This document shows positions 19,583 through 51,211 of a DNA stretch of 64,000 nt, one piece after another. The notes under the pieces were generated by a model. The model was given only the letters and a program-made list of their open reading frames with translations, did no database searches and was not told the DNA's origin. Origin of the DNA: Hyphomicrobium album (lineage in GTDB: Bacteria > Pseudomonadota > Alphaproteobacteria > Rhizobiales > Hyphomicrobiaceae); the NCBI RefSeq assembly GCF_009708035.1, contig NZ_WMBQ01000001.1:372001-436000 (forward strand), read 5' to 3'. Positions within the stretch are counted from its first letter, which is position 1; each line of letters begins with the position of its first letter. The position numbers and the translations under genes are program-made.

Positions 19583-19788
19583 CCTTGCGCGTCCCGTCGA
19601 CGCGGGTACGGGTGGCTTCGAGCGGCAGCGTGGCGTAATTGAACCTGCCGGGCGCTGCGTCCGCGCCACGGGACCGCCAATGTTTGCGTCGATAGAGTCC
19701 GCATCCCAGGGCAAAGTGCTTGGCCGCCCTCGTTAAGCGGCGCCACCCGCGACGCCGCGACCCTGCCACACTGGAAGGCGCGAACCGT

Positions 19789-20997
19789 ATGACCACTCTT
19801 CGTCCAGATCGGCAGCGCTGCCCGTCCGCGGGCCGCGCCGGCGTGCGGACGCTGATGTGGGCTTGCCTGCCGCTGCTCGCGGGCTCGCTGGTGGCGCCTC
19901 CGACTGCCGCTGTCGCCCAGCAAGCCAAGCCCACCGTCACCGCCAAGGCGACCCAGGCGGACGCTGCCAGCGACCGGCCGATACAGTCGATCGTCGCCCT
20001 CATCAACGACGAGCCGATCACCGGCTACGAGATCGAGCAGCGCGTCGCCCTGTCGATGCTCGGCGCAACTGAGGTGCAGAAGAAGCTGCAGGCGCGCCTC
20101 AAGTCGGCAAACATGAACGAACAGTTCAAGAACTTTGCCATGAAGCGACTACAGGCCAACCCACCCAAGAGCGAGACCGAGCAGCAGGCGCGGGTGAAGC
20201 AGTTGCAGGGCGAGTTCGTCAACAGCATCAAGAACCAGATCGAGAAGGAATACGTTCCGACCGCGCGCAAGCAGGCGCTCGACGAGATCATCGACGAGCG
20301 GCTCAAGCTGCAGGAGGCCAAAAAGCTCAGCGTCGTCGCCGCCGACGACGAGGTCGACCGCGTCATCGCCGGCATGGCCGAGCGCAACAAGATGACGCCC
20401 GCGCAATTTGGCGAGCACATTGCCAAGATGGGCGCCAGCATCTCGGGGATGCGCGACCGTATCCGCGCGTCCCTATCGTGGTCGGACGTGATACGGCGCA
20501 AGTTCGGCCACCAGATCACCGTTGCCAGCCGCGACGTCGATCGGATGGTCGCGTCGTCCGAGGGGCAGGACGACGTCGAGCTGCGCATCCACCGCGTGCT
20601 CCTCAACCTGCCGGTGAAGGAGGACCAGAAGCGCCTCACCCAGCGCCTCAGCGATGCGGAGCAGCTGCGCACCAAGTTTACCGGCTGCAAGTCGATGGAA
20701 ACGATGGCGCGCGGCGTGCCCGGGGCCCGCTTCGACAACCTCGGCGACCGGCGCCCGAGCAGCCTGCCGGAGCCGACGCGCAGCTTGCTCCTCGCCGCGC
20801 ACGACGACGAGCTCCTCCCCGCCACCATCGGCGAGAACGGCGTCGAGCTGTGGGCGGTGTGCGGACGCAAGGTGGTCAAGGCCGCCGACTCCAAGCGCGA
20901 GACCGCGCAGAACGAGCTGCGCCAGAAAGAGTTCGAGATCCTTTCCAAGAAGCATCTGAACGACCTGCGTACGGACGCCCATATCGAGTACCGCTAG
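19789..20997 (+). CDS. SurA-type periplasmic chaperone / peptidyl-prolyl isomerase
   Basis: This 402-residue protein starts at ATG 19789 with GGAAGG at 19773-19778. Residues 1-45 form a signal region ending LVAPPTAAVAQQ. The SurA N-terminal chaperone domain follows: IQSIVALINDEPITGYEIEQ and YVPTARKQALDEIIDERLKL. A single parvulin-like domain lies at about 260-370 (IHRVLLNLPV...ENGVELWAVCGRK). It helps outer-membrane proteins such as LptD to fold, which fits its place right after lptD. Its TAG stop at 20995-20997 lies inside the end of a CTAGTG palindromic element. Confidence 0.9.
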   Translation: MTTLRPDRQRCPSAGRAGVRTLMWACLPLLAGSLVAPPTAAVAQQAKPTVTAKATQADAASDRPIQSIVALINDEPITGYEIEQRVALSMLGATEVQKKLQARLKSANMNEQFKNFAMKRLQANPPKSETEQQARVKQLQGEFVNSIKNQIEKEYVPTARKQALDEIIDERLKLQEAKKLSVVAADDEVDRVIAGMAERNKMTPAQFGEHIAKMGASISGMRDRIRASLSWSDVIRRKFGHQITVASRDVDRMVASSEGQDDVELRIHRVLLNLPVKEDQKRLTQRLSDAEQLRTKFTGCKSMETMARGVPGARFDNLGDRRPSSLPEPTRSLLLAAHDDELLPATIGENGVELWAVCGRKVVKAADSKRETAQNELRQKEFEILSKKHLNDLRTDAHIEYR

Positions 20998-21069
20998 TGC
21001 GATGATCGAGAAATTCGCCAACATCAGCTGCGAGGTCTCGAGCGAATTTCTCGATCTGAATCGCACTAG
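20994..21069. repeat. CTAG-ended palindromic element, locus 1, type A
   Basis: A 76-bp unit. The 10-bp ends CTAGTGCGAT and ATCGCACTAG are exact inverted repeats. Inside, a 15-bp stem (GATCGAGAAATTCGC with GCGAATTTCTCGATC) flanks a loop of about 23 bases, with a small asymmetric bulge (GAT against CTGA, sharing bases with the stem ends). Its left end supplies the TAG stop of the surA-like gene. A type A unit with the same ends lies at 27258-27337. Confidence 0.75.
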
Positions 21070-21085
21070 CAAGAAATGTGTGCCT

Positions 21086-21163
21086 CTAGTGTCCCTTCTG
21101 CTTCCGAAGCTCGCTCCCACGATCAGCCGCGGGCTTTGGCGAGCTTCGGAAGCGGGACACTAG
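21086..21163. repeat. CTAG-ended palindromic element, locus 1, type B
   Basis: A 78-bp unit with ends CTAGTGTCCC and GGGACACTAG and an inner 15-bp stem (GCTTCCGAAGCTCGC with GCGAGCTTCGGAAGC). It sits 16 bases after the type A unit. The final TAG is directly followed by the ATG of pdxA at 21164, so the ribosome binding site of pdxA must lie inside the element. Confidence 0.75.
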
Positions 21164-22207
21164 ATGATTGGTGGGGACCACAGGCGCCGGCGTCCGCTCG
21201 CGATCAGCATGGGCGATCCGGCCGGTATCGGCCCCGAGATCACGCTCCGCGCCTGGTTGGAGCGCAGCGACAAGGGGCTCGAGCCCTTCGTCGTCTTCGC
21301 CGACAAGGGCGCGATCGCCGAACGCGCCCGGACGCTCGGCGTCACGGTCCCCATCGCGCCGGTGGGAACGGCCGCCGAGGCGTTCGACGTGTTCGGCACC
21401 GCGCTCCCCGTGTTGCATGCCCCGCTCGCAATGCGCGCTCACGCCGGCAACCCCGACACCGCCAACGCACCCGCCATCATCGCCGCCATCGAGGCCGCGA
21501 CCGCTGCGGTGGTGCGCGGCGAGGCATCCGCCGTCGTTACCAATCCGATCGCCAAGCACGTCCTGCGCAGCGCCGACTTTCCCTTCCCAGGCCACACGGA
21601 GTTCCTCGCCGCGCTCGCCGAGCGCCACACCGGCAAGCCGGTGCGGCCAGTGATGATGCTCGCCTCGCACGAGTTGCGCGTCGTCCCGCTCACCGTGCAC
21701 TGTGCGCTGGCCGAGGTGCCGAAAGCCATCACCCGGGCCCTCATCTTCGAGACGGTGCGCACCACCTACGCGGCGCTGCGGCGCGACTTCGGCATCAGCG
21801 CCCCGCGCATCGCCGTGGCGGGTCTCAATCCGCATGCTGGCGAGGAAGGGACGATGGGGCGCGAGGAGGTCGACACTATCGCGCCGGCCATTGCCGATCT
21901 GCGTGCCGAGGGACTGTCGGTCACCGGGCCGCACTCGGCCGACACGCTGTTCCACGCCGCAGCGCGGCGCGGCTACGACGCGGTCGTCGCCATGTACCAC
22001 GACCAGGCGCTGATCCCGTTGAAGACCATTGGCTTCGACGAGGGCGTCAACGTCACGCTCGGGCTGCCCTTCGTGCGCACCTCGCCCGACCACGGCACGG
22101 CATTCGACATCGCCGGCCAGGGCCGCGCCTCGCCGTCGAGCTTCATCGAGGCGTTGAAGCTCGCCTCGGCTATTGCCGCCGCGCGTGCCGCGACGCCGCC
22201 GGCATGA
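21164..22207 (+). CDS. pdxA: 4-hydroxythreonine-4-phosphate dehydrogenase
   Basis: This 347-residue enzyme of pyridoxal 5'-phosphate synthesis oxidises 4-phosphohydroxy-L-threonine with NAD. Signatures are [15 protein letters not shown] near the N-terminus, [19 protein letters not shown], the metal-binding His residues in [11 protein letters not shown] and [20 protein letters not shown], and [14 protein letters not shown] near the C-terminus. The start at 21164 immediately follows a palindromic element and gives a short basic leader before the conserved region. The stop overlaps the rsmA ATG by 4 bases. Confidence 0.95.
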
Positions 22208-27257: not shown

Positions 27258-27337
27258 CTAGTGTGATGATCGACAAGGCCGCAACATCGCGCTCGGCTGG
27301 GTGGCCGAAGCGGACTTGTCGATCTGAATCACACTAG
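27258..27337. repeat. CTAG-ended palindromic element, locus 2, type A
   Basis: An 80-bp unit with ends CTAGTGTGATGATCGACAAG and CTTGTCGATC then TGAATCACACTAG. It shares GATGATCGA at the left and TCGATCTGAATC at the right with the type A unit at 20994-21069. The remaining stem and the loop differ, yet pairing is kept. It lies 48 bases upstream of the yicC start (minus strand). Confidence 0.75.
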
Positions 27338-27350
27338 AGTCATTTCTTGG

Positions 27351-27425
27351 CTAGTGTCCTTCAGATCGCGAAATTCGTTCCAACTATGCCGCACGCGGAG
27401 ACGAATTTCGCGATCAGGACACTAG
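27351..27425. repeat. CTAG-ended palindromic element, locus 2, type B
   Basis: A 75-bp unit with ends CTAGTGTCCT and AGGACACTAG and an inner 15-bp stem (GATCGCGAAATTCGT with ACGAATTTCGCGATC). It is separated by 13 bases from the type A unit, the same A-then-B order and similar spacing as at locus 1. It lies between mltG (ends 27486) and yicC. Confidence 0.75.
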
Positions 27426-28784: not shown

Positions 28785-28915
28785 GTTGCGCTCCCGACGA
28801 AGCCGGCCCCGCGCGGCAGGTCATTCTCGCCACGACCCTAGGACCAATTATGGCAAAAGCGCGAATGGAATTCGTTACCCGATACGCAGCCGTGGATGCC
28901 CGTGGCGGGAGGGCC

Positions 28916-51126: not shown

Positions 51127-51211
51127 TAGTGTCCCTCTTCCGAAGTTCGCCGGCGTTCGCTGCTGGGACTTGGAGCGAACTTCGTGGCGAATTTCTCGAT
51201 CATCACACTAG
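51127..51211. repeat. CTAG-ended palindromic element, locus 3 (hybrid)
   Basis: An 85-bp element filling the tmk-holB gap. The left end TAGTGTCCC is type B, with an inner stem CGAAGTTCGC / GCGAACTTCG. The right end, TGGCGAATTTCTCGATCATC then ACACTAG, is the exact inverse of a type A left end (compare 20994-21020). The tmk TAG stop is made by the CTA at 51208-51210 on the minus strand, and the holB ATG starts at the other edge. Confidence 0.7.

Follow-up and report, generated by a model that had tools for sequence, protein, structure and literature searches.

The gap between a surA-like gene and pdxA in Hyphomicrobium album holds two palindromic units of 76 and 78 bp, which lie 16 nt apart at 20994-21069 and 21086-21163, just as the first-pass annotation of this DNA had placed them (positions are those of the window, the whole stretch of 64,000 nucleotides that was analysed). 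It had also remarked that the first unit's CTAG supplies the upstream gene with its stop and that pdxA follows the second unit directly, and both observations hold: the surA-like open reading frame (19720-20997) ends on the TAG of that first CTAG, and the pdxA frame begins at 21164. As for the gene names, PdxA is confirmed by a match of 495.8 bits against a cut-off of 378, whereas SurA is matched only in part, at 56.6 bits against a cut-off of 394.

Each unit comprises a 10-bp outer stem, a bulge of 3-4 nt toward the spacer, a 15-bp inner stem and a loop of 23-24 nt, and in both units the inner arms (15 nt) and the CTAG-ended outer arms (11 nt including one flanking base) are 100% complementary. 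The bulge is asymmetric, sitting on the spacer-side arm as TGA in the left unit and TTCT in the right. Upon folding, the left unit reaches -38.6 kcal/mol (z -6.4) and the right unit -54.5 kcal/mol (z -8.6), and none of 200 shuffles folded as well as either. Rfam gave no relevant family at gathering thresholds, its matches being chance-level and far under the cut-offs. The features of the locus are as follows, no strand being assigned unless one is given.

20994..21163: the complete double-hairpin element with a CTAG at either end; G080, the sister species, is empty at the orthologous site
20995..20997, + strand: TAG stop codon of the surA-like gene, within the first CTAG of the element
20994..21069: left half, type x, 76 bp
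20994-21003, 21004-21018 and 21019-21041: outer arm, inner arm and loop of the left half
21042-21056, 21057-21059 and 21060-21069: inner arm, bulge TGA and outer arm of the left half
21070..21085: spacer separating the halves, 16 nt here against 13 nt in most copies
21086..21163: right half, type z, 78 bp
21086-21095, 21096-21099 and 21100-21114: outer arm, bulge TTCT and inner arm of the right half
21115-21138, 21139-21153 and 21154-21163: loop, inner arm and outer arm of the right half
21164..21166, + strand: pdxA start codon, immediately 3' of the element's last CTAG

The element proper, lying between two TA dinucleotides, is probably 20997-21160.

Copies in the window and the source genome

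Two further occurrences are found in the window, again with no strand assigned.

27258..27425: second complete dimer, types x2 and y, with a 13-nt spacer at 27338-27350
51127..51211: remnant, left by an internal deletion that joins the outer half of a z unit to the outer portion of an x unit; the orthologous site in G080 (L255) holds an intact dimer

The rarity of CTAG pointed out in the first-pass annotation is borne out by the window itself, where 52 are found against 91.3 expected and every one of 100 shuffles contained at least 52. Four of the 52 serve as stops, two of these at elements, and in this small sample stop codons look over-used as CTAG sites. Between 33895 and 40219 the CTAG words are clustered in stretches that the gene finder left uncalled, which is possibly an island. 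The pattern CTAGTG-N40-70-CACTAG occurs four times in the window against 0.01 expected, while CTAGTG-N54-74-CACTAG occurs at 43 places in the 3.9-Mb genome, a count that is weak alone because the control word, the pattern read backwards, is not CTAG-poor and itself gives 17.

All 28 of the dimers read out from the source genome possess both halves, the partner unit lying 13-16 nt away, and the bulges face the spacer in 27 of them; the remaining dimer has one unit that is bulged on both arms. There are two types of dimer, the element at 20994-21163 being x+z and the one at 27258-27425 x2+y. From 55 of the 56 units of the 28 dimers (one identical unit was dropped before alignment) a covariance model was built, and it gives 135 strand-wise matches in the source genome, equivalent to about 68 unit places; about 34 dimers were located, one half deleted. 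Tandem dimers have one CTAG in common. Furthermore, a search with the arm, allowing up to 3 mismatches, returned 33 forward and 33 reverse matches (control 0), all within dimers or known remnants except for a lone match at C2:704211 and a poor one at C3:55730, and this search revealed no autonomous copy in the source genome.

Over the 55 units, pairing is observed in 97.8% of 1373 cells, and the check on stem covariation that had been proposed finds changes on both sides in 22 of 25 pairs, against 10.1 in shuffles and 5-9 in slid structures; these statistics are descriptive, since the units were found partly via their ends and the structure was read from the same units. The mispairs comprise 12 G·U and 10 A·C (9 and 7 once each site is read in the direction of its host operon), and their near equality suggests, in small numbers, that pairing is kept alike on both strands, as expected of a constraint at the level of DNA and not of RNA. 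The motif GCNGC stands at the loop centre (scored, for example, in the loops at 21019-21041 and 21115-21138) in 36 of the 55 units, compared with a mean of 2.5 and a maximum of 9 for shuffled loops in 2000 trials.

The gene context of 33 source-genome sites was established with a gene finder based on codon usage, which places 25 between co-directional genes, 6 between divergent and 1 between convergent genes, with 1 unresolved. At 12 of the 33 sites the gene upstream has its stop codon within the terminal CTAG of the element, once as the changed form CTAA, and a comparable arrangement is annotated in Bradyrhizobium sp. CB82, whose sugar ABC transporter gene QA640_RS45100 ends on an element-type CTAG. 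It had been proposed that a regulatory hairpin might exploit stop codons in this manner, yet a preference for CTAG as target explains such stops without regulation, and the mispairs, though few, display no RNA-strand asymmetry.

Distribution and architecture among relatives

The search of relatives that the first-pass annotation had recommended extends the family widely. Among 99 Hyphomicrobiaceae genomes sampled, 51 have matches at E<=1e-4, and these cover 19 of 25 genera; at the level of the order, matches at E<=1e-6 are present in at least 44 of 397 genomes. Among the matches listed for the pattern scan, the hosts comprise records of Hyphomicrobium and Hyphomicrobiaceae, a MAG under the label Hyphomonadaceae, and a few records with no finer label than Rhizobiales or Pseudomonadota. 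The genome G002 contributes nine rows of equal score, and one MAG repeats a single unit, loop included, at four or more loci (L074, L135, L141, L145), which together suggest recent spread. A single intergenic gap carries oppositely oriented dimers at slightly different positions in two species, G000 (L025) and G045 (L070), suggestive of independent insertions. A plasmid search with the window's own dimer gave no match, and one with an f30-type dimer matched 16 plasmid records; approximately whole dimers were matched in Rhizobium, Ochrobactrum, two Martelella, Agrobacterium, Aminobacter and Sphingobium, and the remaining matches, Bradyrhizobium included, are shorter.

When 32 loci from other lineages, other genera and a sister family were parsed, 19 proved to be full dimers and 13 failed the criteria. 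Outside the sister family, the 18 parsed dimers represent eight other families of the order. The larger bulge, of 2-4 nt, is on the spacer side in both halves of all 19, the criteria having demanded some bulge irrespective of side; loops span 22-26 nt and spacers 12-15 nt. Outside the source genome, a central GCNGC is present in 27 of 42 units under a slightly wider tolerance. The stem sequences themselves differ widely in other families (e.g. GATTCCGACATTTGC or GAATTTGAAATACGC, versus GATTCCGAAGTTCGC in z). The sister family has AAAGC ends (CTAAAGC...GCTTTAG) with an identical double-hairpin architecture, and its copies are the following.

L152:7014-7341 and 1605-1766
L162:7680-7842
L101, at about 2520-2683
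L094:1828-1903

At L138:46-440 and L188:36-426, two loci of possibly one MAG, two dimers surround one stretch of about 155 nt that holds an inverted repeat around TTCGACAAGCTCA.

Empty sites and the fate of the stems

In the sister species G080 the surA-pdxA junction reads TAATG, with the two genes overlapping and the element absent. Comparison of the flanks of 31 source-genome dimers with those of 54 G080 dimers yielded 11 shared complete sites, one shared half-element site and a few one-sided sites. As had been suggested at the outset, alignment with insert-free genomes is informative as to the target, for the empty allele is exactly one CTAG at two orthologous sites, L268/L014 and the following position of the window.

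28838..28841, no strand assigned: unoccupied target CTAG; the G080 ortholog (L245) is a dimer with CTAG at both ends

Three further empty sites read CTAGG, TTAG and ATGC, and those read by eye, L187/L047 aside, are CTGG, CTGC, CGAG, CTA, CTGAC and one of ten letters, such that most empty sites are a relative of CTAG and not CTAG itself. CTAG ends alone cannot separate a duplication of TA from one of CTAG. In L152, a sister-family copy is nested in a CTAG dimer as CAC-TA-[AAGC...GCTT]-TA-G, a layout that, in this one nested case, fits a 2-bp TA duplication; we infer TA duplication from this case, and bacterial IS630-family elements are described as duplicating TA in PMC2170065.

The 11 shared complete sites permit the divergence of each part after insertion to be compared. 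The two species differ at 14.8% of flank positions (325 of 2195), 16.4% of loop positions (85 of 517), 23.6% of spacer positions (34 of 144) and 7 of 68 bulge positions, versus 3.8% of stem positions (42 of 1096); by Fisher's test, stems against loops give p 8e-17 and stems against flanks p 3e-24. These sites were found via the element model in both genomes, through which badly decayed copies could be missed, and the site L027/L282, where one unit is kept in G080, was excluded from the counts. For the 550 stem pairs involved, 510 are unchanged, 32 are changed on one side, 4 on both sides and 4 are at a gap. Stems that change so slowly would call for selection acting on a feature of the DNA itself, or for a process that homogenises them. 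Correction from an intrastrand template was considered as the cause and set aside, as by itself it would establish about every second change on both arms, with the overall rate the same as before. At L023:1981-2058 the bulge is on both arms in the source genome versus one arm in G080 (L270), a difference that looks like templated correction of an imperfect palindrome.

A candidate mover and the rival explanations

The IS630 family was at first doubted as a mover because PF13358 matched in only 3 of 10 genomes, and it was revived by the discovery in G002 of a complete 1176-bp insertion sequence with matching ends, whose transposase falls to the IS630 equivalog NF033545 (288.1 bits, cut-off 100). 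One end, GATTCCGAAGTT, matches z at 23 of 26 positions and the other, GATCGATAAATT, matches x and y at 21 of 26, such that the two ends differ from each other as the element's two halves do; beyond CTAGTG, these matches are equalled by 0 of 200,000 shuffles. Both end types recur in G026 and in plasmids of Sinorhizobium sp. CCBAU 05631 and Bradyrhizobium sp. CB82 (in the set containing these plasmids, 2 of 4 loci failed the dimer criteria). Two tandem G002 copies have one CTAG in common, as do tandem dimers. In the insertion sequences of this lineage the tenth letter is followed by GA with no extra letters, likewise in the outer arms of the element, whereas its inner arms carry 3-4 extra letters between the 10-bp and 15-bp parts.

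Ends of IS630 copies were sought with TA or CTAG required, and statements about them refer to copies whose ends could be placed. On that basis, the IS630 ends of G233, G028, G053, G369 and G264 do not match the elements past the first letters. The complete genome G233 contains ten IS630 copies of 1146 bp, listed below, all with CTAGTGCACTGA ends unlike the local double-hairpin elements; these placed ends do not match the f30-type elements either, for which our search found no matching insertion sequence. A dimer adjoining a DDE_3 gene in L210 was entertained as an insertion sequence end and looks like a neighbour instead. As such, the connection between element and IS630 rests on one IS630 lineage.

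G233 IS630 copies: L306, L313, L316, L318, L320, L322, L324-L327

The source genome yielded no IS630 transposase by PF13358 or by protein search. At E<=1e-20, IS630 homologs appear in 11 of 99 genomes of the family and in 7 of 32 element-bearing genomes of other families, leaving 88 and 25, respectively, with no homolog at that threshold, among them the element-rich G080, G083, G049, G037 and G020.

Taken as a whole, the observations make it likely that 20994-21163 is one non-autonomous IS630 (Tc1/mariner-like) element, a MITE, moved in trans: its terminal repeats match IS630-family ends in G002, and the two clean empty sites point to insertion at CTAG. IS630 is reportedly a family that prefers CTAG as its target. 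The mobile palindrome family envisaged in the first-pass annotation is thereby upheld, given about 68 unit places, presence and absence in relatives, a CTAG target and an IS630 with matching ends, with the amendment that the mobile unit is the pair and not the single palindrome, a partner being found for each unit in the 28 dimers. It is reasonable to postulate that an IS630 transposase supplied in trans would bind the outer arms, cut the element out and insert it at the TA within a CTAG. Each end of the element is also folded as a hairpin by virtue of an inverted second copy of its arm, and the 3-4 extra bases of the inner arm may spoil that copy as a transposase site, in which case the pair would move as one. 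As C followed by TAG can be the end of a gene, an element may land in a stop and restore it, and the operon would survive, as at surA. After insertion the stems would be kept by a DNA-level constraint or by correction; such retention is not expected of a plain MITE, and we have counted it against this reading. Also weighed against it are the negative IS630 searches of the source genome and of many element-bearing genomes, the unlike IS630 ends in the five genomes named above, and the empty sites that depart from CTAG.

One alternative, an ordinary operon spacer that is palindromic by chance, merits practically no credence. The first-pass annotation had named a lack of other copies, together with conservation of this spacer in relatives, as the signature of such a spacer; the roughly 68 unit places genome-wide, the chance expectation of 0.01 for the four patterns in the window and the overlapping genes of the sister species all speak to the contrary. 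A cis-acting RNA element (a terminator, an attenuator or an mRNA-stabilising double hairpin) under transcript selection would be in keeping with the 25 co-directional sites, the stable folds and the slow change of stems after insertion, but G·U and A·C mispairs are about equally common, with or without regard to the direction of transcription, and the element is absent from surA-pdxA in G080. Furthermore, both units end in CTAG with no T run after either, unlike an intrinsic terminator, and a scan of 20800-21400 for terminator-like sites with loops of 3-8 returned none. We consider an RNA element improbable.

Were this a new mobile element with a different mover, its IS630-like ends being a borrowed or convergent target feature, the many element-rich genomes with no IS630 homolog would be readily understood, but the G002 ends match in the same asymmetric way far past CTAGTG, and further insertion sequences carry the same pair of end types; we regard this as very improbable. 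Repeats of the REP/RAYT or TIRYT kind, hairpins that a Y1 (HUH) transposase would mobilise in single-stranded form, are brought to mind by the paired bulged palindromes and terminal tetranucleotide, which resemble REP doublets, and PMC3733652 describes dimeric, self-complementary TIR families for TIRYT genes. Against this, Y1_Tnp is absent from the source genome and present in only 5 of 30 element-bearing genomes, none of six Y1 loci fetched carries a dimer, and the element ends match IS630 instead. The units of 75-80 nt with CTAG flanking both sides of each half also depart from the REP unit as defined in PMC3733652, of 20-40 bp with GTAG or CGTC at one end, and we would assign this explanation a very slim chance indeed.

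IS630-type MITEs are already known in the form of RUP (PMC3049150, PMC2170065), as are two-arm alphaproteobacterial repeats in the form of CIR (PMC2229807). RUP of Streptococcus pneumoniae (IS630-Spn1) is alike in being short and transposase-free with IS630-like ends and TA at the insertion site, but in the present family each end is a bulged hairpin of two inverted arm copies, the geometry remains constant while stem sequence shifts between lineages, and stems are conserved after insertion. The Caulobacter CcrM-associated intergenic repeats (CIR) of Caulobacter and Brucella share an alphaproteobacterial host range, an intergenic location, two hairpin arms with a linker and TA termini, all of which are seen here; compared by their description in PMC2229807, they differ in being about 110 bp with GANTC at the terminal loop, whereas the present elements are about 165-170 bp with GANTC in 0 of 55 loops and elsewhere in 37 of the 55 units. 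That same paper calls the mobility of CIR an open question. Our open-access literature searches listed no paper that treats this double-hairpin family or connects two-arm repeats with IS630. The Rhizobiales also harbour the Rhizobium-specific intergenic mosaic elements (RIME) and Bru-RS, which resemble the present family in being intergenic elements with large palindromes.

A broader proposal may be offered, although we hold it as more doubtful than probable: that an alphaproteobacterial, IS630-moved deep superfamily exists whose geometry (10-bp arm, 3-4 nt inward bulge, 15-bp arm, loop of 22-26 nt often with central GCNGC, spacer of about 13 nt) outlives the turnover of its stem sequences, that the bulge is the switch silencing the inner transposase sites, that after insertion the paired stems persist through some function of the DNA itself, for example recognition by a protein that reads palindromes or cruciforms, making the copies dispersed structural sites of the host, and that CIR may belong to it. 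The present work would connect an alphaproteobacterial intergenic repeat of two hairpins with an IS630 lineage that targets CTAG as its candidate mover, and the CTAG target indicates how such an element can settle in stop codons and leave operons unbroken. It also raises the question of why the stems of inserted copies have diverged four times less than the loops and flanks that belong to them, and have done so without the strand bias of RNA selection.
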